Positions 17,006 through 34,039 of a stretch of 64,000 bases of DNA are shown in pieces (position 1 is the first letter of the stretch; each line of letters begins with the position of its first letter). A program made the position numbers and the translations under genes. The DNA lies in NCBI GenBank assembly GCA_016786485.1, contig JAEUWD010000048.1:62001-126000 (forward strand), written 5' to 3'. The DNA comes from Bacteriovoracaceae bacterium. Lineage in GTDB: Bacteria; Bdellovibrionota; Bacteriovoracia; Bacteriovoracales; Bacteriovoracaceae. Below the pieces are notes generated by a model. The model was not told where the DNA came from, ran no database searches, and worked only from the letters and a program-made list of their open reading frames with translations.

Positions 17006-17425
17006 ATGTCATCTCAAAATATAGATGTGTTTTTGCCTGTTTTAATCATGGGGATCATTGCAGTTGCAATATTTGTTGGAGCCTTGTTGGTTGGTGAACT
17101 TTTATCAACTCGTCATCCGAACAAACAAAAAAACACTGCTTACGAGTGTGGTGAAGAACCAACTGGTACAGCGTGGTCACAATTTAACATTCGATTTTAT
17201 GTCGTCGGTTTGATTTTTATTATTTTTGATGTGGAATCAGTTTTGATGTTTCCGATTGCTGCCATCTTTAAACAAATGAATGAAATGGGTAACGGTGGTT
17301 ATATTCTTATCGTCTTTTTAAGTTTCATTTCTGTTTTACTTGAAGGGATCGCTTATTGTTGGAAAAAAGGCGATCTGAACTGGGTTATGAGTTATCAAAA
17401 AAATAAAAGTGAAGGTTCACGATGA
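17006..17425 (+). CDS. nuoA: NADH-quinone oxidoreductase subunit A
   Basis: Membrane subunit at the quinone-site end of complex I, 139 residues, three helices. Signatures AYECGEEP and FNIRFYVVGLIFIIFDVE are intact, including the helix glutamates. ATG start with GGAG 8 bases upstream. First gene of the cluster; nuoH follows with a 4-base overlap, so nuoB, C, D, E, F and G, which usually stand between A and H, are not at this locus. Confidence 0.96.
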   Translation: MSSQNIDVFLPVLIMGIIAVAIFVGALLVGELLSTRHPNKQKNTAYECGEEPTGTAWSQFNIRFYVVGLIFIIFDVESVLMFPIAAIFKQMNEMGNGGYILIVFLSFISVLLEGIAYCWKKGDLNWVMSYQKNKSEGSR

Positions 17426-18555
17426 ATTCAACTGCCGCAACATTTTTCACCAGCATTGAGGCCGTAAATCAAGCGATTGTTACGCTCTCAGAAAAAGTTG
17501 GTTTTAACACCCTACCTCTTGTTTCATTGACTATTATTTTAGTCATGGCACTTATTTTAACTTTGGTTGTCGCAACAATCGGTGGGTACGGTACATATGC
17601 TGAAAGAAAAATTTCAGCTGATATTCAAGCTCGTATTGGCCCAAATCGTGTAGGTCCTTATGGTTTATTGCAACCACTTGCTGACTTAGTAAAGCTTTTA
17701 TCAAAAGAAGATATTTTTCCAATGGCCGCAGATAAATTTTTATTTTATCTAGCGCCATTTCTGGCCATCCTTGGGGTCTTTTCAACTCTTGCCGTGCTTC
17801 CGATTGCAAGTGGTTTAATTTTAACAGATCTTAACGTGGGTGTTTTCTACTTGATCGCAATCTCTTCTCTGGTTGGCGTGGGTGTTTTTTTAGGTGGCTA
17901 CGCTTCAAACTCAAAATGGTCAATGTTAGGTGGCATGAGAGGTGCTTCACAAATCATCAGTTACGAAATTCCAGTTACAATTAGTATTCTAGCCGTGACA
18001 TTAATTTCTGGTGGGATGTCGTTTGGAAAAATTGTTGGTGCTCAAGGTGGCTTACCACATCAGTGGTTCCTGCTTCATAACCCATTTACCTTTATTGGCT
18101 TTTTCGTCTTCTTTGTTGGCGGTTTAGCAGAAACCAACCGTGCACCATTCGATTTACCAGAAGCTGAGTCAGAACTCGTTTCAGGTTATCACACAGAATA
18201 TACTGGAATGCGTTTTGGTCTTTTTGCTTTAGCTGAATACGCTGAAGTTTTTGTTCTTTGTGGTGTCGCAACTGCACTTTTCCTTGGGGGTTACCAGCTA
18301 CCTTTAGATGTTACTAATCTTCCACAAATTCCAGTTCAAGTTATTCAGTCGGTTGTATTCGTGATGAAGTCTTTATTTTTATATTATGTTGTTATTTGGA
18401 TTCGTTGGACTCTTCCTAGAATTCGAGTTGATAGATTAATGTCAATTTGCTGGAAGTATCTCACCCCATTAGCAATTTTTAACTTAGTTGGTGTGTCTGT
18501 TTGGGAAGTTGTTTTCCATGGTCAATCACTAGCTCAACTGATTTTAGGTCACTAA
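17422..18555 (+). CDS. nuoH: NADH-quinone oxidoreductase subunit H
   Basis: Subunit that links the quinone cavity to the pump modules, 377 residues, about eight helices. Signatures GGYGTYAERKISADIQARIG, PNRVGPYGLLQPLADLVKLL and the acidic quinone-site loop AETNRAPFDLPEAESELVSG are all present, so it should be functional. It overlaps nuoA by 4 bases. nuoI, the ferredoxin-like subunit that normally follows, is absent; nuoJ comes 9 bases later. Confidence 0.97.
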   Translation: MNSTAATFFTSIEAVNQAIVTLSEKVGFNTLPLVSLTIILVMALILTLVVATIGGYGTYAERKISADIQARIGPNRVGPYGLLQPLADLVKLLSKEDIFPMAADKFLFYLAPFLAILGVFSTLAVLPIASGLILTDLNVGVFYLIAISSLVGVGVFLGGYASNSKWSMLGGMRGASQIISYEIPVTISILAVTLISGGMSFGKIVGAQGGLPHQWFLLHNPFTFIGFFVFFVGGLAETNRAPFDLPEAESELVSGYHTEYTGMRFGLFALAEYAEVFVLCGVATALFLGGYQLPLDVTNLPQIPVQVIQSVVFVMKSLFLYYVVIWIRWTLPRIRVDRLMSICWKYLTPLAIFNLVGVSVWEVVFHGQSLAQLILGH

Positions 18556-18564
18556 GGATTTTGA

Positions 18565-19107
18565 ATGTTATTTTTAAACGTTTTATTTGGTGTTTCGGCA
18601 GTTCTCACTATCGCATCATCCCTCCTTTGTGTTTTTACTAAAAATATTATGCATGCCTGCGTTTACTTATTAGGTGCACTACTTGGTGTCGCTGGTTTGT
18701 ATATGACTTTGGGTGCGGATTTTGTCGCTGTTACACAAATTATGGTTTACGTTGGCGGGATCGTTATTCTGATGCTTTTCGCCGTTATGTTAACTGGCGG
18801 AAAAGAGTTTGTGAGCAAGGCACAAAAGTTGCTCAATTTAGTTCCACTCATGGGCAACAAGTGGACTTTTTTAATTGCTTCACTTGCTTCGCTAGTTTTC
18901 GCTGGAGTTACGGTTCAGCTTTATTTTAAACTACCAGAATTTTTTAAGACAGTAGATAACACCGAGTTTTCTTCAACTGTCGACGAGCTGGGAAAATTAC
19001 TTATTACCGATCACTTATTAGCGTTTGAATTATCTTCAGTTTTATTACTGGGTGCCTTGGTTGGTGCTGCGATTATTGCTCGACCAAGAAAAGAGGAAGT
19101 AAAATGA
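18565..19107 (+). CDS. nuoJ: NADH-quinone oxidoreductase subunit J
   Basis: Five-helix membrane subunit, 180 residues. The conserved third helix MVYVGGIVILMLFAVML holds the pi-bulge region involved in coupling. The C-terminus ends with the usual short hydrophobic helix and basic tail. It overlaps nuoK by 4 bases. Confidence 0.93.
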   Translation: MLFLNVLFGVSAVLTIASSLLCVFTKNIMHACVYLLGALLGVAGLYMTLGADFVAVTQIMVYVGGIVILMLFAVMLTGGKEFVSKAQKLLNLVPLMGNKWTFLIASLASLVFAGVTVQLYFKLPEFFKTVDNTEFSSTVDELGKLLITDHLLAFELSSVLLLGALVGAAIIARPRKEEVK

Positions 19108-19409
19108 TATCTTATGGTTCATATCTTTTAATCTCAGCTTTTTTATTTGTTATTGGCCTAATCATTATGATGGCTAGAAAAAATATTGTGGCCATTCTTT
19201 TGGGCATTGAGTTTATTCTCAATTCTGCTGCTTTAAGTTTTGTGACTTATTCAAAATTTATTACCAAGAATTTAGACGGACATATTTTTGCTCTTTTTAT
19301 TATTGTTATCGCTGCCGCAGAGGCTGCAGTTGGTTTAGCGATTATTATTCGATTTTTTCAAATTAAAGAAACGATACATATTGATGAAGCTACGGAACTT
19401 CGTAATTAG
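19104..19409 (+). CDS. nuoK: NADH-quinone oxidoreductase subunit K
   Basis: MrpC-related three-helix subunit, 101 residues. Both buried glutamates of the family are present, in LLGIEFILNSAAL and IVIAAAEAAVGLAI, with the conserved basic loop MARKN. It lies between nuoJ (4-base overlap) and nuoL (18-base gap). Confidence 0.95.
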   Translation: MISYGSYLLISAFLFVIGLIIMMARKNIVAILLGIEFILNSAALSFVTYSKFITKNLDGHIFALFIIVIAAAEAAVGLAIIIRFFQIKETIHIDEATELRN

Positions 19410-19427
19410 TAAAAAGGTTTAGTTATT

Positions 19428-21605
19428 ATGGAATATACTATTTCGACCATCGCCCCTATTTTCATCTTCCCATTTATGGCATTTGTGGTGAATGCTTTTT
19501 TTGGTCGCAAGTTGCCACGTCAGGGTGATTGGTTAAGTGTTGGTGCAATTTTCGCTTCGTTCTTATATACCCTAAGAATTTTTGGGGATTTTATTTTCAA
19601 CAAATTCTCAACAGACTATTACGTGCATAAAGTCTTTAATTGGATTGATTTATCTTATGGTGATCAATTTTTTAAAATTGATCTTGGTATTTATATTGAT
19701 AACATGACTGCGATTATGTTGTTGATGGTGACAGGTGTCGCAACACTTATTCACCTTTTCTCGACTTGGTATATGAAAGGTGATGAGCGCTACGGAAAAT
19801 TTTTCGTTTATCTCTCACTCTTCACTTCGGCCATGTTAGGTCTAGTTCTTGCTGACAACCTTCTCCTGTTGTTCGTTTTCTGGGAAATCATGGGCTTCTG
19901 TTCATATTCATTAATTGGTTTCTATTATGAAAAAGAAGAAGCGGGTAATGCTTCTCTTAAAGCTTTCATGACCACCAGAATTGGTGACGTTTTCTTGTTG
20001 TTAGGAATTTTAGGTATATGGTCAGTAGTCGGAAATGTGAATTACGTTGATATTTATGCAGCGATTTCACAAGGACTATTTGAAGGTCATACTGTCATGG
20101 GAATTTCACTAGCAAGCTTCGCCGCTTTCTGTGTTTTCATGGGAACTGTTGGTAAGTCAGCTCAGGTTCCTCTCCAAGTATGGTTACCAGATGCGATGAT
20201 GGGACCGACTCCATGTTCAGCACTTATTCACGCTGCGACTATGGTTGCTGCTGGAGTTTATCTTTCGTTAAGAATGTATCCATTAATGGAGCTTGGTGAA
20301 GTCACTCATATTATCGCCTACGTTGGTGCGATTACAGCTTTCTTAGCGGCCACGATTGCGCTTGTTCAAACAGACATCAAAGCTGTTTTAGCTTTTTCCA
20401 CTATTTCTCAATTAGGCTACATGGTTTTGGGTATTGGTGTTGGTTCATACAACGCTGCTTTTATGCACTTAATTACTCACGCAGTCTTCAAAGCCTGTTT
20501 ATTTCTTTCGGCTGGTTCGGTTATTCACTCTACGCATACGCAAGAAATGCCTGAAATGGGTGGCTTACGTAAAAAACTACCAATTACATTCTTGGCAATG
20601 CTTCTGTGTACATTGGCGATTGCCGGTATTCCGATTTTCTCGGGTTTCGTTTCAAAAGATAGAATTTTAGGTGATGCTCTTTATTGGGGTCTATACGCTG
20701 GTCAAAATAAAGTTCACTTCATTGTGCCAATGCTTGGTTTTGGTGGAGCCTTTTTAACGGCGTTCTATATGTTCCGAATGATGTTCCTCACCTTCTTTGG
20801 TGAGCCAAAAGACAAAGAAGTTTATGAACATTGCCATCATGAACATTTTGAATTTAACCGCACGTTACCGCTGATTATTTTGGCAGCGTTAACATTGGGT
20901 GTGTTTTACTCTGGCTCACTAACTGGCCAAGGTGAAATTAAAATTTTTCCAAGAGCTGCGCAAGAGTGGTTCAAAATTTTAGTTGCTGCTCCAGAAGTGA
21001 AAAATTTTGAAAGTTATACGAAAGAAAAATTCGATTTTGCTGATACTCGCGAAGAAAAAGTTTGGGAAAAAGCTCATTATCACCACCAGAGTGGTTATGC
21101 AGGTGTAAATCCAGACAATGAAGAAGGTATTCACCATGCTCACATTAATGGTGCCGTAGCTTCAGTTATTATCGCCTTCAGCGGTGTTTTATTAGCGTTC
21201 TTCCTTTATATCAGAAGACTGATGTCGCCAGATTTCTTCGTCAATATGTTGAAGCCGTTACATAGACTTACGACTCATCGATATTATTTCGATGATTTCT
21301 ATATAGGTATCCTGCTTAAAAAGGGTTTATTGGTTTTCAATAATGCCCTAGCGTTTTTGGATATGGGAATTTACGATCGCATAGCTATTGATGGTTGGGC
21401 GAAAGTTAATAATTGGATCTATCGTGCAAGTAAGTGGTTTGACGATGTTATCGTTGACTCTATTGCTGTTGATGGTACAGGTACAGCAGTTAATTTATTT
21501 AATTTAGTATTGAGAGTTCTGCAGTCAGGAAAAATACAGTTCTATTTCGTTGTCTTGATTGTGGTTCTTTCAGGATATATTTGGTCGTTAAATTTTATTT
21601 CATAA
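19428..21605 (+). CDS. nuoL: NADH-quinone oxidoreductase subunit L
   Basis: Distal antiporter-like pump subunit, 725 residues. The pump residues are in place: the helix-5 glutamate E153 in LFVFWEIMGF, the helix-7 lysine in GTVGKSAQVPLQVWLPDAM and the broken-helix-12 lysine in GFVSKDRIL. It ends with the long lateral helix and last transmembrane segment (VNLFNLVLRVLQSGKIQFYF). A loop near residues 500-565 is rich in His and acids and longer than usual. Confidence 0.97.
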   Translation: MEYTISTIAPIFIFPFMAFVVNAFFGRKLPRQGDWLSVGAIFASFLYTLRIFGDFIFNKFSTDYYVHKVFNWIDLSYGDQFFKIDLGIYIDNMTAIMLLMVTGVATLIHLFSTWYMKGDERYGKFFVYLSLFTSAMLGLVLADNLLLLFVFWEIMGFCSYSLIGFYYEKEEAGNASLKAFMTTRIGDVFLLLGILGIWSVVGNVNYVDIYAAISQGLFEGHTVMGISLASFAAFCVFMGTVGKSAQVPLQVWLPDAMMGPTPCSALIHAATMVAAGVYLSLRMYPLMELGEVTHIIAYVGAITAFLAATIALVQTDIKAVLAFSTISQLGYMVLGIGVGSYNAAFMHLITHAVFKACLFLSAGSVIHSTHTQEMPEMGGLRKKLPITFLAMLLCTLAIAGIPIFSGFVSKDRILGDALYWGLYAGQNKVHFIVPMLGFGGAFLTAFYMFRMMFLTFFGEPKDKEVYEHCHHEHFEFNRTLPLIILAALTLGVFYSGSLTGQGEIKIFPRAAQEWFKILVAAPEVKNFESYTKEKFDFADTREEKVWEKAHYHHQSGYAGVNPDNEEGIHHAHINGAVASVIIAFSGVLLAFFLYIRRLMSPDFFVNMLKPLHRLTTHRYYFDDFYIGILLKKGLLVFNNALAFLDMGIYDRIAIDGWAKVNNWIYRASKWFDDVIVDSIAVDGTGTAVNLFNLVLRVLQSGKIQFYFVVLIVVLSGYIWSLNFIS

Positions 21606-21621
21606 TTCTAAGGAGTCTAAA

Positions 21622-23148
21622 GTGAGTGGTCTATTGAATTGGGTTTTATGGTTTCCGGTTATTGGTATGATAGCCGTTCTTTGTGTTCCTGGTACGAAAG
21701 TACAAACCATAAGATATGTAACGTTGGTAACAACCGCGATAACTTTTTTACTTACGCTAGTTCTTTATGCTTCGTTTGATACTGAAGTTGGTGGAATGCA
21801 ACCGCACTTAAGTTTCAAAATGCCATGGATTTCACAATTCCATATTAATTACTCTCTAGGCATTGATGGGATTTCATTGCCGATGATTATTCTTACGGGT
21901 TTACTTTTTTTAATCTGTACACTCAGTTCTTGGACGGTTGAGAAAAACGTAAAAGCATATTTCGCTCTTATGTTAATGCTTCAGTCTTCGGTATTTGGCG
22001 TTTTTATGGCGCTTGATTTCTTCTTATTCTATGTCTACTGGGAAGTTATGCTCCTTCCAATGTTCTTTCTCATCGGAATTTGGGGTGGGGAAAATAGAGA
22101 ATACGCTGCGATTAAATTCTTTCTTTATACATTCTTTGGTTCAATTATTATGTTGGTTGGTATCATCGCCCTTTATTATGCAACCGGAAAAGGCGAAGAT
22201 TCATTTAATATTCTAGCGCTTCAAGGTGGTCAATTTACTGAAATGACGATTCATTTATTTGGAACTGATTGGTCATTTGAAAGATTATTCTTCTGGGCCA
22301 TGTTCTTGGGTTTTGCGATTAAAGTACCAGTTTTCCCATTCCATACTTGGTTACCTCATGCTCACGTACAAGCACCAACCGCCGTTTCAGTTATTCTGGC
22401 TGGCGTTCTACTTAAGATGGGAACTTACGGTTTCTTGAGAATTGCCTTCCCTATTTTTCCGTCTGCAGCAGTTGAATATGCACACGTATTGGCGATTCTA
22501 GGTTGTATCTCGGTTATCTATGGAGCGTTCTGCGCGATGGCACAAAACGATGTAAAAAAACTTATCGCTTACTCATCAGTTTCACACATGGGTTTTGTTA
22601 TGCTTGGTATGTCTGCCATGACAACTCAAGGTATGAACGGAGCTGTCTTGCAAATGTTTAACCACGGAACTTCGACGGCCATGATGTTCTTGATGGTTGG
22701 AGTTCTTTATGAAAGATCTCACCACCGTTGGATTGTAAAACCAGACGGTACAAAAGGTTACGGCGGTCTTTACACTCATATGCCAAAATATTCAATTATT
22801 TTTATTATAGGTATGTTTGCTTCTCTTGGTTTACCAGGTCTTTCAGGTTTTATTTCTGAAGCACTTATTTTCTTAGGTATCTTTAATAAATTCACAACCA
22901 TTACAGTTATTGCTGTTCTTGGTCTATTAGTTGGTGCTGCATATCTTCTATGGATGTTCAAACGTATGTTCTTTGGTGAAGTATCAGATGAAGTAAAAGA
23001 ATATGATGACATGAACAAAAGAGAAATTGGTTATATGATTCCTCTTTGTGTGGCGGTTATCTTTTTTGGAATTTACCCAATGCCAGTATTAAATATTATG
23101 CGAGCATCAGTGGGTGAACTTTTAACTTTATTAGCGAAGTATAACTAA
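21622..23148 (+). CDS. nuoM: NADH-quinone oxidoreductase subunit M
   Basis: Middle antiporter-like pump subunit, 508 residues, GTG start preceded by TAAGGAG. Key residues: E141 in VYWEVMLLPMFFLIG, K234 in FAIKVPVFPFHTWLPHAH, and the helix-12 glutamate in GLSGFISEALIF. Ends with FFGIYPMPVLNIM. This sequence is the reference for the diverged copy at 28124-29539. Confidence 0.97.
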   Translation: MSGLLNWVLWFPVIGMIAVLCVPGTKVQTIRYVTLVTTAITFLLTLVLYASFDTEVGGMQPHLSFKMPWISQFHINYSLGIDGISLPMIILTGLLFLICTLSSWTVEKNVKAYFALMLMLQSSVFGVFMALDFFLFYVYWEVMLLPMFFLIGIWGGENREYAAIKFFLYTFFGSIIMLVGIIALYYATGKGEDSFNILALQGGQFTEMTIHLFGTDWSFERLFFWAMFLGFAIKVPVFPFHTWLPHAHVQAPTAVSVILAGVLLKMGTYGFLRIAFPIFPSAAVEYAHVLAILGCISVIYGAFCAMAQNDVKKLIAYSSVSHMGFVMLGMSAMTTQGMNGAVLQMFNHGTSTAMMFLMVGVLYERSHHRWIVKPDGTKGYGGLYTHMPKYSIIFIIGMFASLGLPGLSGFISEALIFLGIFNKFTTITVIAVLGLLVGAAYLLWMFKRMFFGEVSDEVKEYDDMNKREIGYMIPLCVAVIFFGIYPMPVLNIMRASVGELLTLLAKYN

Positions 23149-23159
23149 AAGGATTAAAA

Positions 23160-24635
23160 GTGATCTTAAATTTATTTAGTAATTTAAGTTTTTATATTCC
23201 AGAAGTCCTGGTGATTATAACCATGTGCTCACTCCTTTTTATCGAGTCGAGCTACGGACCAGCCGAGAAAGAACGTAAATTAGTTTTTATCGCTGCTACG
23301 ATTGGTTTAGTTTTGGCCTTCGTTTCCTTGATGTTCAATTTAGGTGAAGAATCAAAACTCATTTTTGCTAATGCTGTAGTTATTGATAAATTTTCAACCT
23401 TATTAAAAATGATTATGGTTCTAGGCACATTGGGTGTGGTTTATTTAAGTAAATCATCGCTTGATATTTACCGAGGTTTAAAATCTGAATTTTTAATTAT
23501 GGTAATGGGTGTTCTGGTTGGCGGTATGTTGCTAGCTTCAGCCAACAATCTTCTTACGGTTTACTTAGGAATTGAAACCCTTTCGATTTTATCTTACGTA
23601 CTAACTTCGTTTAAGCGTCACGAAGCAACTTCAACTGAAGCTGGAATTAAGTACGCGCTTTACGGCGGTATCAGCGCAGGTGTTATGTTGTTTGGTATGA
23701 GCCATATTTACGGTCTTTTAGGTACAATTCAATTTGCTGAAATGCTACCTGCATTTGCTAAGGTTCAAGAAGCTGGTCAACAATGGTTAATGATGGCTTC
23801 GTTCATCATGTTTTTTGTTGGTATTGGATATAAAATTGCTTGTGTTCCATTTCATATGTGGTCACCTGATGTTTATCAAGGTTCTCCAATCCCTGTTACA
23901 ACTTTCTTTTCGATTGTTCCAAAAATGGCAGGGATAGCAGTTCTCGTTCGTGTTAGTTTACTTTTCTTTGGCGAAAGTCAAAGCGCAGTGGAAATTGGTT
24001 GGTTCGGTTTGATCCAAATTATTGCAGCACTAACAATGAGTGTGGGAAATATTTCAGCTATTGGGCAAGATTCTATGAAGCGTCTACTGGCCTATTCATC
24101 TATCGGCCACGTGGGTATGATGTTATTAGGGGTTTTAACTCTTAATACCGTTGGACCCAAAATTATTGTTTTTTACGGCATCAATTATCTATTTATGACA
24201 TTAGTTGCGTTCTATATAACTTCGGCTGTGTCTGATAAATTTGGTTCAGACTCGCAAGCCTCGTTCAAGGGCTTGGTAACGAAGAATCCATTCATGGCAA
24301 TTCTCATGAGTATTAGCCTATTCTCACTTGCAGGACTTCCACCATTTAGCGGTTTCATTGCGAAGTTCAATATGCTCGCAGCGGTAGTGGATGCAAAATA
24401 TTATGGATTGGCATTCGTAGCGGCCGTGAACTCAGTTATTTCACTTTATTACTATGTTAAAGTTGTAAAAGTTATGATCTTTTCAAAAGCTGAAATGGAA
24501 GGCCCGATTGATACTTTTAGATTTTCTAATCAGGCATTAATAGCTTTGTGTACATTGCCAGTGATAATTTTAGGTTTATTTTGGGATAAATTGATGCTGC
24601 TGTCTGAGGGAGCTAAAATTTTTATTCAGCAGTAA
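23160..24635 (+). CDS. nuoN: NADH-quinone oxidoreductase subunit N
   Basis: Proximal antiporter-like subunit, 491 residues, GTG start with AAAGGATT upstream. E139 in VYLGIETLSILSYVL, the helix-7 lysine in GIGYKIACVPFHMWSPDVY, IGQDSMKRLLAYSSIGHVG and PPFSGFIAKFNML are intact. It completes the canonical membrane arm. The next gene begins 21 bases later without a terminator, so the following seven membrane genes are probably on the same transcript. Confidence 0.97.
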   Translation: MILNLFSNLSFYIPEVLVIITMCSLLFIESSYGPAEKERKLVFIAATIGLVLAFVSLMFNLGEESKLIFANAVVIDKFSTLLKMIMVLGTLGVVYLSKSSLDIYRGLKSEFLIMVMGVLVGGMLLASANNLLTVYLGIETLSILSYVLTSFKRHEATSTEAGIKYALYGGISAGVMLFGMSHIYGLLGTIQFAEMLPAFAKVQEAGQQWLMMASFIMFFVGIGYKIACVPFHMWSPDVYQGSPIPVTTFFSIVPKMAGIAVLVRVSLLFFGESQSAVEIGWFGLIQIIAALTMSVGNISAIGQDSMKRLLAYSSIGHVGMMLLGVLTLNTVGPKIIVFYGINYLFMTLVAFYITSAVSDKFGSDSQASFKGLVTKNPFMAILMSISLFSLAGLPPFSGFIAKFNMLAAVVDAKYYGLAFVAAVNSVISLYYYVKVVKVMIFSKAEMEGPIDTFRFSNQALIALCTLPVIILGLFWDKLMLLSEGAKIFIQQ

Positions 24636-24656: not shown

Positions 24657-24935
24657 ATGAATATAAGTATTTATGTTTTACTTTTTACGCTTCTTTATCT
24701 TTTCATAATTTTTTATGTCTTTAGCAGAAAATTATCTTCATCAGCGAAAAGCTTAAAAAAATCAGCATTTTTTAAGCTTAATGTTTCTGTCGTTTCACTC
24801 ATGTCGATTCTTTGGGTCTATTATTCACTAAGCACTGGTTATATTGAAATGGACAAGAACGACGGACAGATACCGATCGTCTTATTAATTATTATTCTTT
24901 TCTTAATTGCCCTTAGAAAAAGGCCGCAGGCATGA
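24657..24935 (+). CDS. Diverged NuoA-like membrane protein (A')
   Basis: 92 residues, three predicted helices (about 4-22, 40-58, 70-86). By itself unrecognisable. It is assigned by position as first of seven genes repeating the order A-H-J-K-L-M-N and by topology: helix, basic linker, then AFFKLNVSVVSLMSILWVYYSL aligning with QFNIRFYVVGLIFIIFDVESVL of NuoA from this window. The ECGEEP loop and the helix glutamates are missing. No good ribosome site precedes the ATG, but no other start fits. It overlaps the next gene by ATGA. Alternatively an unrelated small membrane protein. Confidence 0.5.
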   Translation: MNISIYVLLFTLLYLFIIFYVFSRKLSSSAKSLKKSAFFKLNVSVVSLMSILWVYYSLSTGYIEMDKNDGQIPIVLLIIILFLIALRKRPQA

Positions 24936-25801
24936 GTTTAAATTTTAATTTTCATGCCGTTACTATTTTTCTGGCCCTGAGTTATTTCGCCACGGGAATT
25001 GATGCACTTTTTTCACAGATTTTAAATAAAAAATTAAAAATCGGTACAGTGTTAAATATTTTACTGACAGTTCCGATGGTGAAGTTTATTAAATTTTTTA
25101 GCAGACGTTCACAACGTGAACATTTCTCAAAATTACTCATCTCATCTTTTGTTACCTTCAGTTTACTTTTTTTGATCGATCACATGATTAACGTACAAAG
25201 TGTAAAAAGCCTTAATTTCATTCTTTTAATTTTACTCTTTACGAAATTGGTCAATAATCACCTCGAGAAATATTCTGAGAAAAAAGAAGATACATTTGAT
25301 TCTATTTTCCTAATGGTTTTAAGTATGATCATTTTCTCTTTTATTGTGAATAAAATTGATAGCTCTAGGAGCATGGATTACGTGACCTTCTTTGAAAAAA
25401 TTTCGCATTATAAGTTTTCAGTCATATTGTTAGCTTTTCTTCAACTAGTTTCGTTAGTTTTTCTAAGAGGTGATTCTAATCCTAGTGATTACTTTAACCA
25501 AACTATTGTACGAATGAATAATCGACTGCTTATTAACGTATTAATTTTCTGTATTGCATTTTATTATGTGAACTTTCTTTATTCTGTTTCAGGGTTATTG
25601 CCTGAAAAAATTCACGGTGATTATCAGTTAATGTCTTCGTTAATTATTACAACCCTTGTTTCGCTGTTTGTTTATTTTGTAACTTCATGGGTTTTTGTTT
25701 TGAAAAGTTTTATTAAAATCGAAAATAAAAACACTATGATGCTTTATGGAAGCATTACTTTGTTTTTAATTGTGCTCGAGCATAATGGGTATATTAAATG
25801 A
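24932..25801 (+). CDS. Diverged NuoH-like membrane protein (H')
   Basis: 289 residues, about eight helices. Residues 17-60 align without gaps to NuoH residues 54-97, sharing the Pro before VKFIKFFSRRS (NuoH: P then DLVKLLSKED) and the following lysine; I count only 7 identities in 44, so this is weak by itself. Later HYKFSVILLAFLQLVSLVFL then RGDSNPSDYF stands where NuoH has HNPFTFIGFFVFFVGGLAE then TNRAPFDLPE. The quinone-site acids are therefore lost. Fifth to eighth helices and a basic C-terminal loop (SFIKIENKN) also fit. 4-base overlaps on both sides. Confidence 0.55.
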   Translation: MSLNFNFHAVTIFLALSYFATGIDALFSQILNKKLKIGTVLNILLTVPMVKFIKFFSRRSQREHFSKLLISSFVTFSLLFLIDHMINVQSVKSLNFILLILLFTKLVNNHLEKYSEKKEDTFDSIFLMVLSMIIFSFIVNKIDSSRSMDYVTFFEKISHYKFSVILLAFLQLVSLVFLRGDSNPSDYFNQTIVRMNNRLLINVLIFCIAFYYVNFLYSVSGLLPEKIHGDYQLMSSLIITTLVSLFVYFVTSWVFVLKSFIKIENKNTMMLYGSITLFLIVLEHNGYIK

Positions 25802-26223
25802 TTGATAATATCTTATTAAGTGCGATGACGTTATTGATGGTTTTATATGTTTTCTCAAGAAAGCACTTCTTTCTTTATTTGGTTTTATTCTCGTGTTTTC
25901 ATATGGTTTATTTTTATCTGCAAAAGCCATCACTTGATACGGTATGGTTAGGTATAATTATGCTGGCTTCAGTTCTTATTAATAATCGAGTTTTGAAATC
26001 GAAAAAAGGCGTTGGGGTTAAGCTTAAACCGCGCCCATATTTCTATGGTCTCATTATTATTTCCGTCGTTTTAATGTACCTACTCTATATTGCTTTATTG
26101 CCAGAATTATATGTTATTCAGGAAAAGAAGATATTAATGAGCGGCGCAAACACCACATCCTGGGTGATTATTGTGATGTTCTCGTTTCTTGCATTATTTT
26201 TATTTAAGGAAAGCAATGAGTGA
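25798..26223 (+). CDS. Diverged NuoJ-like membrane protein (J')
   Basis: 141 residues, about five helices. VLYVFSRKHFFLYLVLFSCF followed by a second helix and LDTVWLGIIMLASVLI parallels LLCVFTKNIMHACVYLLGAL and VAVTQIMVYVGGIVIL of NuoJ in this window. The GG of the coupling helix is replaced by LA. Shorter than NuoJ (180). It overlaps H' by ATGA and K' by 8 bases. Confidence 0.5.
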   Translation: MIDNILLSAMTLLMVLYVFSRKHFFLYLVLFSCFHMVYFYLQKPSLDTVWLGIIMLASVLINNRVLKSKKGVGVKLKPRPYFYGLIIISVVLMYLLYIALLPELYVIQEKKILMSGANTTSWVIIVMFSFLALFLFKESNE

Positions 26224-26446
26224 AAAAATTCTAATTATAGAATTATTATTTTTGCTTCTAGCGACGGTACTAGGGCAGAACTACCAGAAAAAAATGACGA
26301 CTATCTATTTTATTTTTTTCTTAGTGACACACTATTGGGCGCAAAAAACAGATATCCCAAATAATATTATCAATATTTTCACAGTGATATCACTGGTTTA
26401 TCTTTCAACCACGGTAAAAAAGATGAAAAGAAGCAATAATGAGTAA
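26216..26446 (+). CDS. Diverged NuoK-like membrane protein (K')
   Basis: 76 residues from the ATG at 26216 (AAGGA upstream; an in-frame TTG at 26189 is deeper in J' and less likely). Three short helices arranged as in NuoK: ILIIELLFLLLATVL, a basic loop NYQKK (NuoK MARKN), then a second and a third helix. Neither of the two buried NuoK glutamates is kept; aligned positions are hydrophobic or Ser. The only helix acid is near the N-terminus. 8-base overlaps with both neighbours. Confidence 0.5.
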   Translation: MSEKILIIELLFLLLATVLGQNYQKKMTTIYFIFFLVTHYWAQKTDIPNNIINIFTVISLVYLSTTVKKMKRSNNE

Positions 26447-28127
26447 TCTCTTTATTCTTAATTGTATCGTTCTGCTTTTCTGCAATTTATTGCTTTATCG
26501 CTTCTTGTCTTGGGATGTGTTCAAAAAATATTTTGCTATCTCAACTTTAGTGCAAATTGCTCTCATTGCTTGGGGCATATATGCCTATGATACAACGGCC
26601 TTAAAATACTTCTGGTTCCCTATCGATATTAAAACTGAAATTTTTCTCGAATATAAATATTCTATGCTCAATTTTGTATCTATTGTCACAATTCTTGTAT
26701 CTTGTTATTGCGCGGCCATATTTGAGAAGAGCAAAGATGAAAGCTTTATTCCCTATATACTGTCGAGTTTTTTTGCTTTTATTGCCTTTGGCGCTAATGA
26801 CCTTTTCGTTTTTATGTCAACCTTTATTGCCACTACCGCCATTAATACAAAACAATTTGTGCGAGCGGAGTCTGGAAAATCTTCTTTTTTGAATTACGTT
26901 GTCGAGTTTGGTATCAACCTGGTAATAGCACTTTTAATTACCCATGCTGCAAAAATGACAGGTTCAAGTAGTTTTGAAGTTCTATACCTAAACGAAATGT
27001 TTGTGAATAATTATCGTTATATTTTATTCGCAGTCATGCTGGTGAAAGTTTTAAAGTTTTCAATATATAAAAACACCGAAGTTGTTTCAAGCTCTGAATT
27101 TTGGCTTCGTTCTGTCCTTTTTCCATTCTATGTTCTTTGTTTTTTATTAAAAGCAGGTTTTTTTCAAGGCACGTTACCTGATCATGTTTCGCAATTAATG
27201 GGCGTAACAATAATGTCGGTGCTCTTTGGCTGTTTTATCTTCAGGAAAATTCAATATCGTATTTCAATGTTAGGGGTAGTCGTTTTGTTCTTTGTTATTT
27301 TTATGAACCTACTTAATAAAAACGAACAAACTTTTAAGTTTGGTCTTTTCTTAATTTTCAGCTATCAAATATTGGTTGAAGTTTTTATCAAGAAGCTTAT
27401 CAAAGAAAATTATTATATTTTAAGACAAAGCATGATCAGTTCTTCGGCCGATGTTTATATCATCCGCGCCATAGTCGCATGTGTAGTGGGTAGTGTGGCC
27501 ATACTCATGGGACTTAATCATCAATTACAAAAAGTAATAGGTTTTGACAGTGATAATTTTTATAACTTGGCGGCATTAATTATTGGTATCATTTATATAC
27601 TCATGTCAGTAAAGCCTGCAGTTGATATTGATTATAAAGATGAAAAAGAAAGTCCGTTTGATAATCCTGATTATAACAAGATCTATTTTATCATTTTTGG
27701 TTTATTAATTGCAGTGACTTTTATTTTTAGACATCTTGATAGTCTTTATACATTTAAGCTTTTTGGGACGCAAAAAATCAAAATTGATAATATTCTTGTC
27801 TCTTTGGTTTTTATTAGCCTCCTTTTCTGTTTCATTCTTTGGTCGCGTAAAAATAAGTATGTGGAAAGTGCTTCAAATGCTCAATTTTACAACTATTTTA
27901 AGGGCTTCAACCGCTCTCTAGCTTTTGTCACGACGCCAATTCTTTTAGCCGCCCAGTCAATTCACTGGATTGATTCATCACTTAAAGGTGCAGCAAAAAC
28001 ACTACAATATGCCTTTTTAAATACCTCATATCTGATTCGTCGTTATGAAAAATATGAATTAACTTATTCACTTTTTCTTATGAGTCTTGCCGTTCTAATT
28101 ATTGTTTTAGTGGGATTGTATAAATGA
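26439..28127 (+). CDS. Diverged NuoL-like antiporter subunit (L')
   Basis: 562 residues, about 13 helices. YSMLNFVSIVTILVSCYCAA and NDLFVFMSTFIATTA follow the pattern of NuoL helices 4-5 (DNMTAIMLLMVTGVATLIHL, LLFVFWEIMGF), with the essential glutamate replaced by Ser127. A lysine (K203 or K206) remains near the helix-7 position but the VPLQVWLPDA signature is gone. The C-terminus has the NuoL-type amphipathic lateral helix (SIHWIDSSLKGAAKTLQYAF) and a last membrane segment after YELTYSLFLM. Intact frame; overlaps K' by 8 bases and M' by 4. Confidence 0.6.
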   Translation: MSNLFILNCIVLLFCNLLLYRFLSWDVFKKYFAISTLVQIALIAWGIYAYDTTALKYFWFPIDIKTEIFLEYKYSMLNFVSIVTILVSCYCAAIFEKSKDESFIPYILSSFFAFIAFGANDLFVFMSTFIATTAINTKQFVRAESGKSSFLNYVVEFGINLVIALLITHAAKMTGSSSFEVLYLNEMFVNNYRYILFAVMLVKVLKFSIYKNTEVVSSSEFWLRSVLFPFYVLCFLLKAGFFQGTLPDHVSQLMGVTIMSVLFGCFIFRKIQYRISMLGVVVLFFVIFMNLLNKNEQTFKFGLFLIFSYQILVEVFIKKLIKENYYILRQSMISSSADVYIIRAIVACVVGSVAILMGLNHQLQKVIGFDSDNFYNLAALIIGIIYILMSVKPAVDIDYKDEKESPFDNPDYNKIYFIIFGLLIAVTFIFRHLDSLYTFKLFGTQKIKIDNILVSLVFISLLFCFILWSRKNKYVESASNAQFYNYFKGFNRSLAFVTTPILLAAQSIHWIDSSLKGAAKTLQYAFLNTSYLIRRYEKYELTYSLFLMSLAVLIIVLVGLYK

Positions 28128-29539
28128 TAAAAATAAACCACATCGTTGAATATTTACAGCTCTTCTTTCCGCTTATTTTTGGACTTATTTTGCTGGCGGT
28201 TTCAATCAGCGAAAAAGCCGTTAAAAAAATGGCCCTGGTGGTCTCTTTAGGAATTTTTGCTTTATCTTTCGGAGCACTCTTTTTCTTTAATTTAACTTAT
28301 GATGAAGTTTTTAATTGGATTATTGTTTCAAATCAAGAGAAGACTTTTGATTTTTTACTTTTTAGAACAAGGCTGACGGACTTGTTAATTCTCTCGACCA
28401 GTACGGCATTATTACTGATTTGTGTACGTTTATATAATTTTTCTACTAAGAATTTAAAATTAGTTATTGCATTACTTTTTATTCAATTTTCCATTACGCA
28501 ATTTACGATTCTATCAGATAGTTTGATACTGTTATTTTCTTGTTTTGAGCTCTTTGGAATTTTACTCATGTTAATGTTTGTTGCGGTAGGAGAAAAAGAA
28601 GTTCTGCGTCCAGTAAAACTTTTTATGTTTTTCTGGGGAGCGAGCTCCGCCCTTATCTTCTTCTCAATTCTTATACTGGCATCAGTACTCGGCGAATCAA
28701 AAGGCGTTTTTGATGTGACGGTAAGTTCTATTCCTGTTTTAGTCGAAGAGATTACCTATTTCACACATAAAGAATTATTTCTAGGATGTTTATTGGGTGC
28801 TCTGTTGGTGCGTGGAAGTATTTTTCCATTTCATTCATGGGGACTACAATTTATTAAAACTAATATCTTCCCGATTAATATTCTGTATTCTTGGTTTTAT
28901 CCACAGCTTATCTTCTGTGTGTTTTATAAATTAATTACAGAAGTTTTTCGTAACGATATGGCACGCTATGAATCACTTGTTTATTATTTAATTTTCTTCT
29001 CATGTCTGTATCACGCTGTGCTTATTATTCGTGAAGAAAAAATTCATGCTAAAATCGGTTGTTTTATTGGGGTATGTAATTCCATTCTATATTTACTATT
29101 GTTCTCGATGAAAGTAGATGAAATTAAATATTCGATTCTTTTTCTTTTGAGTTATACTCTTTTGGCTTCAGGTGTGCTTTTCTCAGAAAACCAAGAAGAA
29201 AAAAGCGTTAAATCATTTGAAGGAACTCGATATAGTTTTAGTCATATTTATCTATTTTTATCGACGATGTTTTTTCCTGTTTCAAGTTTCTTTATTTCAA
29301 TCATTTCTATTTATTCGTTCTTTTTGGATAAAAACAATGCGCTTGGTTTGATTTCTATTTTTTCATTTCTTTTCGTACTAGCTTCGATAGTACCTTTCCT
29401 CTATCAGAATGCTTTTGTGACAATCCAGAATGGTACTGATAAATTCAATATTTTCGTGCGCTTACCAGCGGCAGTGATTTCTTTGATTATGCTATTACTG
29501 GGTTTATATCCACACATTATTATGGAACTTATATTATGA
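28124..29539 (+). CDS. Diverged NuoM-like antiporter subunit (M')
   Basis: 471 residues, about 13-14 helices; the clearest homologue of the set. It keeps the helix-5 glutamate (E142 in SCFELFGILLMLMFV; NuoM E141) and the IFPFHSW motif at 233-239 (NuoM VFPFHTW), and it ends with LLLGLYPHIIM (NuoM FFGIYPMPVL). The helix-7 lysine K234 of NuoM is Arg230, and the helix-12 glutamate is Ile393 in FFPVSSFFISIIS (NuoM GLPGLSGFISEAL). Numbering of the two proteins runs almost in step. ATGA overlaps on both sides. Confidence 0.75.
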   Translation: MIKINHIVEYLQLFFPLIFGLILLAVSISEKAVKKMALVVSLGIFALSFGALFFFNLTYDEVFNWIIVSNQEKTFDFLLFRTRLTDLLILSTSTALLLICVRLYNFSTKNLKLVIALLFIQFSITQFTILSDSLILLFSCFELFGILLMLMFVAVGEKEVLRPVKLFMFFWGASSALIFFSILILASVLGESKGVFDVTVSSIPVLVEEITYFTHKELFLGCLLGALLVRGSIFPFHSWGLQFIKTNIFPINILYSWFYPQLIFCVFYKLITEVFRNDMARYESLVYYLIFFSCLYHAVLIIREEKIHAKIGCFIGVCNSILYLLLFSMKVDEIKYSILFLLSYTLLASGVLFSENQEEKSVKSFEGTRYSFSHIYLFLSTMFFPVSSFFISIISIYSFFLDKNNALGLISIFSFLFVLASIVPFLYQNAFVTIQNGTDKFNIFVRLPAAVISLIMLLLGLYPHIIMELIL

Positions 29540-30876
29540 ACCTTGGTTATATTTCGGCCCACTTTATTTATATTTACCTCGCACTTATAGCGATCGTCCT
29601 TTGGTATAAAGATAGCAAAATAAAAGAAGTCGTTTTGCTATCCTCAAGTTTAGTTATTGCGACTTTATTATTAAGTGGTATTTATTTCGAAACATTTACC
29701 TCAGATCGCTTCGTTGATTTTAATATTTCCAATTACTCACGTTTAATGGGTATATTGACACTTTTCGTGGTGATATTTTATCGAAGTGAAAAATATTTTC
29801 TTGATCGTGTTGCAAACTTTTTGTTGCTACCTATTTCGTACATTTTTGTAACGACCGAAGATGCTTTTATTTTATTAGGTTCGGCAATTGCAACCAAGTC
29901 TATCTTACTTAGTTCAGTTTCTAAAAATCTACCCATGAACCAGCTTCGAAAATATAAAATTATTGAAATGATCTCGATTGGCTTCTTATTGCTCTTCGCT
30001 GTTTTCTTCTCAATCTCAGTAAAAAGTCCAGTTTTTGTAGATATCGAAGTGGAAAACTACCAACTTTATTCACTGGCAATGATTTTTTTAGTTGTAACGA
30101 TCATTGAAATTTCCAGCGGTATTTTTATGGGCCTAAAATCACATATACTCAGCGATTCGACTGGTCCGGCCCGTAGCTTGTATTTCTTTTATGGTATTGT
30201 GGTCGTACTGTATAAGCTCATACTGGTTATTAACAATCTGTTAATCGAAGCAGAGCCTGAGTTTCAGCGTAGTATCGTGAGTTTTATTAAGTACTATGCC
30301 CCAATTAATTTCTTTATGCATAATTTCCTTGCCATCAATCAATCTGATATCAAAAAGTTTTTTAATCGTATTATTTCATCATTGCTAGGCTTGGTTTTAT
30401 TATCAGTTATTGTTGTGAAGTCAGGTTCAATAAAAGCAGAATTAATTTACTATCTTATTAGTATTCTTATTTCATATATTCTTATTTCTGAAATTTATGA
30501 TCTAGCAAAAAATTCCACCGACGCTAGCATTATTAACGAGAATCCATTCGAAGCACTATATCGTCGTAATAAAATAGCGACAGTGGTTTTCATCTTAGCT
30601 GTTTTAAATTTAGTCGGAATTCCGTTTACCTATGGATTTTCTTCGAAGTTTTTCTTCTTATTAAATTATTTCCAAGAAGGTTATATTTATCCAATGTTGG
30701 TCATCCTGCTTTCATCTGTTTTTGTTTTACCAGATGTGATGAAAGTAATTTCGTCGTTATTTAGCATTAATAAGGAATCAATGGTCTTAAATTTTGGAAT
30801 GAACAAGACCCTCTTTTTGATTTTATTTTCAATCTTAATTGTAATATTTGGAGTATATCCAAAGATATATTTTTAA
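29536..30876 (+). CDS. Diverged NuoN-like antiporter subunit (N')
   Basis: 446 residues, about 13 helices. FLAINQSDIKKFFNRIISSL matches NuoN SAIGQDSMKRLLAYSSIGHV, and NLVGIPFTYGFSSKFFFLLN matches SLAGLPPFSGFIAKFNMLAA with the helix-12 lysine kept (K371). The helix-7 lysine may be K201 in FMGLKSHILSD (NuoN IGYKIACVPFH). The helix-5 glutamate E139 of NuoN is Ala117 here. The end VIFGVYPKIYF is typical for the family. It starts within the M' stop (ATGA). Confidence 0.7.
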   Translation: MNLGYISAHFIYIYLALIAIVLWYKDSKIKEVVLLSSSLVIATLLLSGIYFETFTSDRFVDFNISNYSRLMGILTLFVVIFYRSEKYFLDRVANFLLLPISYIFVTTEDAFILLGSAIATKSILLSSVSKNLPMNQLRKYKIIEMISIGFLLLFAVFFSISVKSPVFVDIEVENYQLYSLAMIFLVVTIIEISSGIFMGLKSHILSDSTGPARSLYFFYGIVVVLYKLILVINNLLIEAEPEFQRSIVSFIKYYAPINFFMHNFLAINQSDIKKFFNRIISSLLGLVLLSVIVVKSGSIKAELIYYLISILISYILISEIYDLAKNSTDASIINENPFEALYRRNKIATVVFILAVLNLVGIPFTYGFSSKFFFLLNYFQEGYIYPMLVILLSSVFVLPDVMKVISSLFSINKESMVLNFGMNKTLFLILFSILIVIFGVYPKIYF

Positions 30877-30877
30877 A

Positions 30878-33800
30878 ATGAAATATAGAATAAAACTATC
30901 CAACAATCGTATCATCGGGCCCTTTGCTCCTGAACAATTTCAGGAATTACGTGATAAGGGACATATTCAAGGAAACGAGCAAATTCAAGAGTTTCCAGCG
31001 GGCGACTGGAAAAGTATCGGCGAAATATTTCAAAAATTAAAAGCCCCTACTATTTCAAATCAAGATGCGACTTTCATGAGAAAAATTGCTGATTTTGATT
31101 TAGAAAAAAATAAATCCACTTTTAGTGAGCCAGAGCCAGAGATTCCTGCGGTTTCGCCAGTAGAATTGCCAAGCACGCCGGAGGTTCCAGTAACCCCAGA
31201 AAATTACCCAGATGAATTTGAATTCAAAAAAAATGAACCTACCGAATTAAAATTAGAAAATTCACCGGCCAACGCCTCAGAAGAAGTTGTCTTAAAGCCT
31301 GATATTGAAAAGATAGCCGCTGTTAACGATGATATCAAGACCGTTGTGGTTTCGAAAAAAGCTTTGATGGATAAAGTTGGTGACGATGAAAAAACGCGAG
31401 TCAATATTGCTCGTCAAAAAATGAAGGTTGTCGATGAACCTGCTGTCGGTGTGCCGAAAATATCAACGGAAGCTACAGAATCCACGCCATCTGAGGAAGA
31501 AGTTGAAGCCGATATAAAAAATGATGCTACTCAGTTTATTAGTTTTGAGAAAGAAAAAGACAAATTTTTAAAAGAAATACAAGTTGTTGAAAAAGAAATT
31601 GAAGTTGAAGAAAAAAAAGTTTTGTTTGAAACAATGAAAGTGGCCCCACCGCCAAAAAAGAAAAAAAAGCTATTGTTAATCGCAGGGGCTTTATTGGCAA
31701 TACTTCTGCTTATTGAAGAACCAAAACAGCAGAAAGAGTTGCCAGTTTCTTATCCACAAATTCATTATCCGATAAAGTTCGATCCACCGGACCACGAGAA
31801 AGCTCGGAGTCTTTTTAAGAAAGGTATGGATGTTTACAATCTCGGGACTTATAAAGAAAAAATCCGGGCGGCGATATATTTTAAGGATTCAGTCGAAAAT
31901 GACTTTTTAGATAATTCAGCGATGGGAATGCTACTGAGCTGTTATGCTGAAATTCTGGAAGCATCAAAAAATATAAAGCAAGACGCGAATATGATTTATA
32001 AATTAATTAACGTCATTACTCCGCGCTTAACTGAAGACCCAAATATTGTTTATGGGGTAGCAAAATTTTTTAATGTTATAAAAAAATATGACGCTTCTAC
32101 AGAGGCGATTAGTCGTTATCTGGTTATTTCAAAACCATCACTGAAAGTTTTTGCAATCTATCTCGATTCATTGGCGCAAGCCGGTGACTTGCAAAATGCC
32201 AAAAAAGTTTACGATATGATTAAACAACAAGGACAAAAGCCACGTGAAGCATATGTTGAGATTGTAAAATTCGATATTTTTAATCAAAATTTTAATGAAG
32301 CTGCTATCAATTTAAGTGAAGGCTTACAGGCTTATCCAACTTCGGTGGAGTTATTGTTGCTTAAGGCGCGGCTTGATATCCATGCTGATAGATATGGCGA
32401 TTTAAGTAAAACACTAGATTTAATTAATAAGCAAAAAGCTGATTATCACCCTCATTATTACTCCAATTTATTGGAATTTACCGGGATGTATCTGGCCCGC
32501 CAATCAAAACCAAAAGAAGCCTATCAAATGTTCACACAGGCGCTTCAGATTCATGAATCGCCAGAACTGCGCGCGAAATTAGCTTCACTCAAAGTTGAAA
32601 CAACGGACACCCCTGAAATTTCAAAATTAATTAATCAAAGCCAGGCGATTAATTTAATGAATAAAGCTTCCGTTGAAATTAAAAACGAAGCTTACGAAAA
32701 AGCCTTGGCGCTTTTGATTAATGCAGTTGATTTAGCGGAAAATTACACCCCAGCTCGGGTTATGCTATCACAAGTGCAAATTGAATTAGGTTATTTCAAA
32801 CAAGCCATTAACAGTTTAGTTGAAATCGTAAAAAATGATTCACTTGATCCTAGCGCAAACTTTGCCCTACTTGATGCTTATACCAAAGCATTCAAATTTG
32901 CTGACGCCAAACGACACATTGGTAATATATCAAATACCAATCTCCGCGATCAAGCCGACTTCACACGCTTAGTTGGTGAAATGTACTATCAAATGAATGA
33001 TTCTCTTCAAGCATTATCTTGGTTAAGTAAAGCCGTTGATGCCGATCCGTTAGATGATAGGCCTTATGATATTTTGTCGCGAATCTATCTTTCACGCAAA
33101 GACTTTAAAAGAGCAAAAATTTTATTATCAAAAGCAATAGAGCTAGAGCCAAAAAAACCTACTTATCGTGTTTCTTACGCACGGGTCATTTATGAAATGG
33201 AAGATGCTGATACAGCACTAGGATACCTCAGGGGAATTTCACAAGAATTTAGTATTGATCCTGAAGTCCAAGGTGAAATTGCTATTCTTTATTACCGCAG
33301 TGGTCAGATGATGCAATTTGAACAACAAAAAGGTTATATCGAAGGTCTTCCTGAAAAAAATTATAAGTTCTACGAGTTTATGGCAAACGCTGCTATGTTG
33401 GACCAAAAGTTTGATCAGGTCGTTGAATACAGTAAGAAAAAAATTGAACTTAAGCCAGGTGATCTTGAATCCAGAATTCTTTCAGGGAAAATTTTAATGG
33501 AGCAAGGAAAACTAGACGAGTCACTTGCTATGTTCCAAGGCGTTCAAGATCGTTTACCAAATTATCCACGTTTGATGTTTTATATTAGCAAATTGTATTT
33601 AATGGCCGGTGAAAGTGATAAGGCGATTGAAGCTGCTAAAAAAGAAATGACGGAAAACCCAGATTTAGCGGAACCACATATTTTGTTGGGGAATATTTAC
33701 AAAGATTTAGCAGAAACAAAATCTGATCCAAAATTATATAACGAAGCAGAGAAATATTATAAAAGTGCTCAGGCCATTAATCCAAATTCACCTGATGCTT

Positions 33801-34039
33801 TGATTGGAATCGCAGATATTTCTCAGAAGAAAAATCAGTATGAAGTCGCACTCGATTTGTATCGTCGTGCCTTAAGTGGAGATACAAATAATCCTGAACT
33901 GCATAAAAAAATGGGCGATACTTATCGCAAATTAGGTCAGGGCAAATTGGCAATTGAGTCTTATAAAGTATTCCTTGAGCTTTCTCCAGAAACAAAGTAT
34001 AGAAGTGAAATTGAAAAGTACATCATGACACTTCAATAG
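30878..34039 (+). CDS. Membrane-anchored GYF-like/TPR protein
   Basis: 1053 residues from the ATG at 30878, one base after the N' stop. An upstream TTG at 30848 would extend into N' and is not favoured. Order of parts: GYF_2-like domain at 1-55 (IKLSNNRIIGPFAPEQFQEL, then DWKSIGEI); Pro/Glu-rich linker to about 255; a lysine cluster then one transmembrane helix (265-279); then about 750 residues of TPR-type helical repeats to the end, e.g. ALSWLSKAVDADPLDDRPYD and ALDLYRRALSGDTNNPELHK. Topology by positive-inside rule: GYF part in cytoplasm, TPRs in periplasm. Resembles motility/envelope scaffold TPR proteins of predatory and myxobacterial lineages. Probable partner of the second Nuo-like arm by operon position (inference). 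Confidence 0.75.
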   Translation: MKYRIKLSNNRIIGPFAPEQFQELRDKGHIQGNEQIQEFPAGDWKSIGEIFQKLKAPTISNQDATFMRKIADFDLEKNKSTFSEPEPEIPAVSPVELPSTPEVPVTPENYPDEFEFKKNEPTELKLENSPANASEEVVLKPDIEKIAAVNDDIKTVVVSKKALMDKVGDDEKTRVNIARQKMKVVDEPAVGVPKISTEATESTPSEEEVEADIKNDATQFISFEKEKDKFLKEIQVVEKEIEVEEKKVLFETMKVAPPPKKKKKLLLIAGALLAILLLIEEPKQQKELPVSYPQIHYPIKFDPPDHEKARSLFKKGMDVYNLGTYKEKIRAAIYFKDSVENDFLDNSAMGMLLSCYAEILEASKNIKQDANMIYKLINVITPRLTEDPNIVYGVAKFFNVIKKYDASTEAISRYLVISKPSLKVFAIYLDSLAQAGDLQNAKKVYDMIKQQGQKPREAYVEIVKFDIFNQNFNEAAINLSEGLQAYPTSVELLLLKARLDIHADRYGDLSKTLDLINKQKADYHPHYYSNLLEFTGMYLARQSKPKEAYQMFTQALQIHESPELRAKLASLKVETTDTPEISKLINQSQAINLMNKASVEIKNEAYEKALALLINAVDLAENYTPARVMLSQVQIELGYFKQAINSLVEIVKNDSLDPSANFALLDAYTKAFKFADAKRHIGNISNTNLRDQADFTRLVGEMYYQMNDSLQALSWLSKAVDADPLDDRPYDILSRIYLSRKDFKRAKILLSKAIELEPKKPTYRVSYARVIYEMEDADTALGYLRGISQEFSIDPEVQGEIAILYYRSGQMMQFEQQKGYIEGLPEKNYKFYEFMANAAMLDQKFDQVVEYSKKKIELKPGDLESRILSGKILMEQGKLDESLAMFQGVQDRLPNYPRLMFYISKLYLMAGESDKAIEAAKKEMTENPDLAEPHILLGNIYKDLAETKSDPKLYNEAEKYYKSAQAINPNSPDALIGIADISQKKNQYEVALDLYRRALSGDTNNPELHKKMGDTYRKLGQGKLAIESYKVFLELSPETKYRSEIEKYIMTLQ

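Follow-up and report, generated by a model that had tools for sequence, protein, structure and literature searches.

The 64,000-nucleotide stretch analyzed here (the window; positions 62,001 to 126,000 of contig JAEUWD010000048.1 in the Bacteriovoracaceae bacterium assembly GCA_016786485.1) encodes two complex I membrane arms in tandem: a canonical nuoAHJKLMN set (arm 1) and a strongly diverged set of seven genes, A'H'J'K'L'M'N' (arm 2). Positions without a prefix are those of the window. The reading that we favor, at a probability of roughly 0.75, is that arm 2 belongs to a redox-dead, pump-dead descendant of complex I that is selectively maintained as a membrane scaffold. A more specific proposal, to which we give slightly less than even odds, is that this complex I derivative has been kept family-wide, without electron transfer or pumping, for a new nonenergetic function exerted with a pseudo-pyrophosphatase lipoprotein, possibly as a platform for predation; the window organism is probably predatory. 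An earlier note on this DNA had recognized that the canonical membrane arm of complex I is followed in tandem by a second, diverged one. That identity stands, but the account was incomplete: the arm is one half of a complete second complex, with genes at another site specifying peripheral subunits B', CD', and I' and a linked lipoprotein; the tandem is no peculiarity of this genome, being ancestral in the phylum, where both arms are canonical and two whole operons occur in genomes G086 and G065; and in the window species the redox centers and nearly all of the pumping residues have been lost.

Arm 2 consists of seven intact open reading frames (ORFs) at 24657-30876, in the order A'-H'-J'-K'-L'-M'-N', directly 3' of arm 1 (17006-24635 in the ORF list; key residues kept), and both arms lie on the forward strand. 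Judged by the ORF list, hydropathy, and family profiles, A' (24657-24935; 92 amino acids, three transmembrane [TM] segments) has the position and size of NuoA, while H' (24932-25801; 289 residues, 8 TM), J' (25798-26223; 141 residues, 5 TM), and L' (26439-28127; 562 residues, ~14 TM) take the positions of NuoH, NuoJ, and NuoL, a tree of the recognizable members also bearing on H'. The ORF list and family profile place K' (26216-26446; 76 residues) at the NuoK position, M' (28124-29539; 471 residues) is a NuoM homologue, and N' (29536-30876; 446 residues) is a NuoN homologue. Successive ORFs overlap by 4, 4, 8, 8, 4, and 4 bases, and the coordinates, sizes, and 4-8 base overlaps given for the seven ORFs earlier proved exact on re-checking. 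The arm-1 proteins A, H, J, K, L, M, and N have 139, 377, 180, 101, 725, 508, and 491 residues, and the rank order by size, L>M>N>H>J>A>K, is common to both arms. The claim that the topologies of arm 2 repeat those of arm 1 holds by hydropathy for A (3 TM segments in arm 1/3 in arm 2), H (8/8), J (5/5), and N (13/13). Agreement is approximate for M (12/13) and L (17/14), and K differs (3/1). The tandem locus contains no nuo B, C, D, E, F, G, or I gene.

This layout is a property of the family, taken to be Bacteriovoracaceae from the named relatives. In 29 family genomes, seven tiled ORFs of matching order and size lie on a single contig with the same flanks. In the family genomes examined, the second-arm ORFs occupy the space between arm 1 (or mfd) and a gene for a tetratricopeptide repeat (TPR) protein; in the window, the TPR gene and then serS follow arm 2, and mfd lies upstream of arm 1 on the opposite strand. 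The second arm is plainly complex I in G014, G028, and G031, intermediate in G020, weaker in G022, G033, and G039, and nearly unrecognizable in the remaining family genomes. Arm 2, CD', and the lipoprotein are missing jointly from G003 and G032. The arm-2 region of G004 (L052) is only 2.4 kb long; ORFs of the sizes of A', H', J', and K' stay, and a single 214-residue ORF stands where L', M', and N' would be.

Sequence matches in the window itself are confined to two proteins. N' matches NuoN (1.6e-11, NCBIfam) and the Proton_antipo_M domain PF00361 (1.1e-8, Pfam), while M' matches NDH_I_M (8.9e-5, NCBIfam) and is linked to conserved second-arm members at 4e-5 (blastp). Profiles of the positional families, with the conserved members included, matched NuoA at 4.5e-8, NuoH at 1.6e-30, NuoJ at 3.6e-9, NuoK at 3.8e-8, NuoL at 3.7e-19, NuoM at 4.7e-38, and NuoN at 5.5e-21. 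Each matched its own counterpart only, apart from the expected cross-matches among L, M, and N. For A', H', J', and N', profiles restricted to diverged members gave their best score with the correct subunit, yet not significantly; for K', L', and M' there was none. Profiles of the window and G021 proteins found the conserved second arms for M' and N' only, and a genome scan with M' alone as query recovered no relative. The identity of A', H', J', K', and L' in the window thus rests on the family series, position, and size. The earlier note was right to see the clearest sequence support in M' and N' and mainly positional support for A', J', and K', which lack significant matches of their own; its "fair" for L' and H' was too generous, because neither gives a significant match and both likewise depend on the family series together with position and size. 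That five of the seven window proteins lack a significant match is what a chance run of unrelated small membrane-protein genes, mimicking a complex I arm or an Mrp antiporter, would produce. We regard such a coincidence as practically negligible: N' and M' are homologous to NuoN and NuoM, a continuous series leads to canonical arms, and the order, sizes, and flanks are shared family-wide, the seven tiled ORFs between conserved flanks in 29 genomes being themselves incompatible with a chance arrangement.

The peripheral partners are encoded at other loci. The window genome has three NuoD proteins, one in a complex I operon split over contigs C36 and C28, one in a B-C-D-I set on C48, and one in a lipoprotein-B'-CD'-I' set on C47. 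The split operon (L037 on C36 and L036 at the end of C28) is a third complex I, a complete canonical 14-gene set with nuoL broken by the contig boundary. CD' on C47 combines a NuoD domain (PF00346, 3e-82) with a NuoC domain (PF00329, 3e-24), and its alignment has 29 invariant columns; B' is a NuoB homologue (TIGR01957, 3.3e-10). The simplest pairing probably joins arm 1 with BCDI on C48 and arm 2 with B'CD'I' on C47; G022, which has no arm 1 at the locus, contains NuoD of the CD' type only. The spacing of the arms could suggest another arrangement. Only 21 bases separate arm 1 from arm 2 and no terminator-like site was found in this gap, so that the two are probably co-transcribed, as would suit an accessory role in which arm 2 modulates arm 1 by joining it in a heterodimer or supercomplex. 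This is very unlikely, because arm 2 has a peripheral set of its own and G009, G017, G036, G042, G054, and G058 keep all seven arm-2 ORFs without arm 1 at the locus; the genomes lacking arm 1 led to rejection of arm 2 as a partner of arm 1.

The redox centers of this second complex are gone in the window genome. B' contains no cysteine, so the four NuoB cysteine ligands of cluster N2 are absent. I' is a 103-residue NuoI remnant (L039:8300-8608, reverse strand) from which both 4Fe-4S ferredoxin motifs have disappeared and whose only cysteines form the pairs CPKC and CISC. The C47 cassette lacks NuoE, F, and G, and the genome's other EFG copy lies in the third, 14-gene operon. A complete EFG set stands beside CD' only in G014, in G031, and, in diverged form, in G005; G028 has at least E and F there, its contig ending inside the set. 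Ligands are lost from B' and I' alike in the window genome and in G021. Across the family, 22 of the 36 scored genomes have the full set of four B' ligand cysteines and the other 14 have lost it, with seven changes by parsimony on a weakly resolved tree, and I' keeps all eight of its ligand cysteines in most scored genomes; iron-sulfur ligands thus appear to have been lost repeatedly and independently. The I' of G021 is a similar remnant (L078:7937-8245, forward strand) without ferredoxin motifs and with the same two cysteine pairs, which in both genomes resemble a zinc ribbon and give weak YheV/DUF2387-like matches.

The membrane subunits of arm 2 have lost their key residues in parallel. A' no longer has the YECG and DVE motifs. 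The NuoH quinone-site motifs GPNR and ETNRAPFDLPEAE are absent from H' by both alignment and direct reading, and the ETNRAPFD quinone-site loop is gone. Both membrane glutamates of K' are lost. In L', whose alignment is uncertain, Glu TM5, Lys TM7, and Lys TM12 were not found; M' keeps Glu TM5 but has Arg for Lys TM7 and lacks Lys TM8 and Glu TM12; and N' has lost three of its four key residues, keeping Lys TM12. Of the channel residues of L', M', and N' in the window, therefore, only Glu TM5 (M') and Lys TM12 (N') remain. Single alignment columns are uncertain in sequences this diverged, and motif absence was also judged by direct reading. The membrane glutamates and lysines and the NuoH quinone-site motifs are lost in nearly all arm-2 members, while the key residues of the second arm are intact in G014, G028, and G031. 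In arm 1 of 21 genomes, the key Glu/Lys and quinone-site residues are kept, apart from one conservative D/E exchange in NuoA, and the third complex keeps its key residues where they are testable. With the redox centers and nearly all pumping residues lost, arm 2 of the window would not be a working proton pump by any known mechanism.

A lipoprotein gene stands 5' of B' or CD' in the surveyed cassettes. The protein is present in 49 of the 59 family genomes and, within the phylum sample, is essentially confined to the family; its named relatives come from Bacteriovoracaceae, Halobacteriovoraceae, and similar groups. It has a lipobox cysteine plus eight more invariant cysteines, 21 invariant columns in all, and no Pfam domain of its own. 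Its AlphaFold model (pLDDT 86.4, pTM 0.83) has best matches in the Protein Data Bank (PDB), as found by Foldseek, that are all family I inorganic pyrophosphatases (E ~1e-8 to 1e-6, probability 1.00, target TM score 0.64-0.79), and sequence profiles point weakly in the same direction. The metal-binding aspartate motif DGDPxD reads QVGEPQQ in the window genome, and its last aspartate is missing in 23 of 23 rows. The lipoprotein is therefore predicted to adopt a pyrophosphatase fold that is probably non-catalytic.

Although its sequences diverge very fast, arm 2 is under purifying selection in the relatives examined. For G017 and G058, which have no arm 1, the ratio of nonsynonymous to synonymous substitution rates (dN/dS, omega) is 0.06-0.20 for all seven arm-2 genes, and the proportion of synonymous differences (pS) exceeds that of nonsynonymous differences (pN) with z of 6.5-19.8. 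For G002 and G048, omega is 0.13-0.29 in arm 2 (genes with unsaturated dS) versus 0.006-0.066 in arm 1. Between the same-genus genomes G007 and G052, identity is 83-93% in arm 1 versus 20-30% in arm 2. For two arms separated by only 21 bases, this contrast in rate is a striking example of how two copies of a whole multi-subunit machine can evolve asymmetrically. Within the second complex, G002 and G048 share 80% identity in B', 74% in the lipoprotein, 73% in CD', 65% in I', ~64% in A'H'J'K', and 33-44% in L'M'N', an order that is the reverse of that expected for a proton pump. Fast divergence, the shrinking of L', M', and N', and partial or complete loss in G003, G004, G018, G024, G032, and G046 could all describe a relic, with complex 2 under relaxed selection and its ORFs open only because decay is recent. 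We consider this improbable. The divergence is old, with same-genus copies of arm 2 only 20-30% identical and frames still open, the seven ORFs are intact in 29 genomes, CD' and the lipoprotein retain their invariant columns, and the dN/dS values of the two species pairs, with pS well above pN, disfavor pure decay.

The origin of the second complex can be traced outside the family. Tandems in which both arms are canonical occur in other families of the phylum (G060, G082, G088), and G086 and G065 contain two whole complex I operons in tandem, the 11-subunit type followed by the 14-subunit type; some operon genes of G065 and at contig ends were left unlabeled. In a NuoH tree, a 100/100 branch separates second arms from all first arms. 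The family's recognizable second arms group as a single clade (100/100), which lies on the same side of that branch as the second arms of the outgroups. Three second-arm rows lie on very long branches, which makes placement within this clade unsure. These outgroup tandems and the NuoH tree indicate that arm 2 is old and vertically inherited. In a NuoD tree, the family's CD' proteins form one clade (100/100) adjoining the B-CD-E-F-G-I type of the outgroups; the C48 NuoD lies apart from CD', with the outgroups' BCDI type. By its phylogeny, then, the second complex sits with the outgroups' 14-subunit, NADH-oxidizing type.

Several observations weigh against a scaffold devoid of redox chemistry and pumping. 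Many relatives keep the Fe-S ligands of B' (22/36) and I', which means that electron transfer may persist in them and that the shared function might not be purely structural. The selection estimates come from related species pairs, no genome being close enough to the window species. For A', H', J', K', and L' of the window, neither Pfam and NCBIfam nor the counterparts in other genomes gave a significant match, and the AlphaFold model of H' (21 rows) is poor (pLDDT 58.6, pTM 0.34) and returned nothing in a PDB fold search, leaving H' without fold support. That arm 2 physically assembles with the B'-CD'-I' module and the lipoprotein is deduced from co-occurrence; G018, G024, and G046 have no arm 2 at the usual locus yet retain the lipoprotein (in G024 and G046 together with CD'), and in G012 neither B' nor I' is recognizable. 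The retained ligands could be explained if the complex were an altered but working converter, in which B'-CD'-I' takes electrons, arm 2 moves ions through other residues, and the window species is an extreme case. EFG-less complex I is a real form, the 11-subunit enzyme being one. The loss of membrane Glu/Lys and NuoH quinone-site motifs from almost all members, and of both sets of ligands in the window genome and G021, makes this explanation unlikely.

Complex 2 descends vertically from the 14-subunit NADH:quinone oxidoreductase of the phylum, the membrane arm of which lay in tandem with that of an 11-subunit complex I. Under the scaffold reading, the family ancestor then acquired the pyrophosphatase-fold lipoprotein, and most lineages later shed the NADH module EFG and most proton-channel and quinone-site charges. 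The products of arm 2 presumably still assemble with B', CD', I', and the lipoprotein, in the window species with neither electron transfer nor proton pumping. The "heel" of complex I (CD' on B' on H'/A'/J'/K') would then most likely serve as a cytoplasmic-membrane platform by which the periplasmic lipoprotein is held or positioned, and the pumping subunits L', M', and N' may have turned into loosely constrained spacers.

The second complex resembles 14- and 11-subunit complex I in its seven membrane subunits and their order, in its NuoCD, NuoB, and NuoI homologues, and in phylogenetic origin. It differs in lacking E, F, and G in its module, in the absence of Fe-S ligands from B' and I' here, in the loss of proton-channel and quinone-site residues from arm 2, whose sequences are mostly beyond recognition, and in the linkage of its peripheral genes to a pyrophosphatase-fold lipoprotein. 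The "2M" type among the "unusual complex I homologs" reportedly has one extra NuoM pump subunit. It shares with the present case a duplication inside the membrane arm, but it adds a single pump subunit, whereas the window species keeps an entire second-complex arm that has lost its pump residues. Mrp antiporters, DAB complexes, membrane-bound hydrogenases, and formate hydrogenlyase have antiporter-like subunits in common with complex I, but their gene order and subunits differ from those of arm 2. The Mrp gene set and order are not found in arm 2, and the second arms hold a NuoH-type clade and have CD' and B' partners, unlike Mrp, which has neither NuoH nor NuoCD. An energy-converting hydrogenase or formate hydrogenlyase type was rejected, as CD' has no conserved cysteines for a NiFe site: no cysteine occurs among its invariant or nearly invariant columns, where NiFe-binding pairs were sought. 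Two phylogenetically distinct complex I gene sets per genome are also found in Rhodobacter sphaeroides, whose complexes IA and IE are both described as presumably NADH-oxidizing (PMC4859585); unlike these isozymes, the second complex of the window species has lost the residues for NADH oxidation. No earlier description of a redox-dead, pump-dead complex I was found in the open literature, most subscription papers lying outside the search.

Few large enzymes are as conserved as complex I. The family offers a graded natural series, from canonical complexes (G014, G031) through loss of EFG (G020) and loss of membrane residues with Fe-S ligands kept (many genomes) to loss of everything in the window genome and G021. 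This series reveals which parts are dispensable and in what order and raises the question of what use the body of complex I has without its chemistry. Long retention under selection in relatives, set against these losses in the window species, suggests that an energy-converting machine has been re-used for a non-respiratory job.

The conserved neighbor of arm 2, recognized from the ORF list and synteny, is the TPR protein (30878-34039, forward strand), which has ~1050 residues and one probable TM segment and whose start codon lies just past the N' stop. Its gene is conserved at the same place in outgroups and where arm 2 is missing. Elsewhere in the window genome, on C47 (L039:15802-17999), and likewise in G022 (L043:13450-17229), genes that read as Na+-translocating NQR-like adjoin the lipoprotein-B'-CD'-I' cassette. 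On C45 (L038:6306-10564), an antiporter-like NuoL relative lies beside an 814-residue protein and a SulP-like transporter, a gene group that by reading resembles a DAB inorganic-carbon system.

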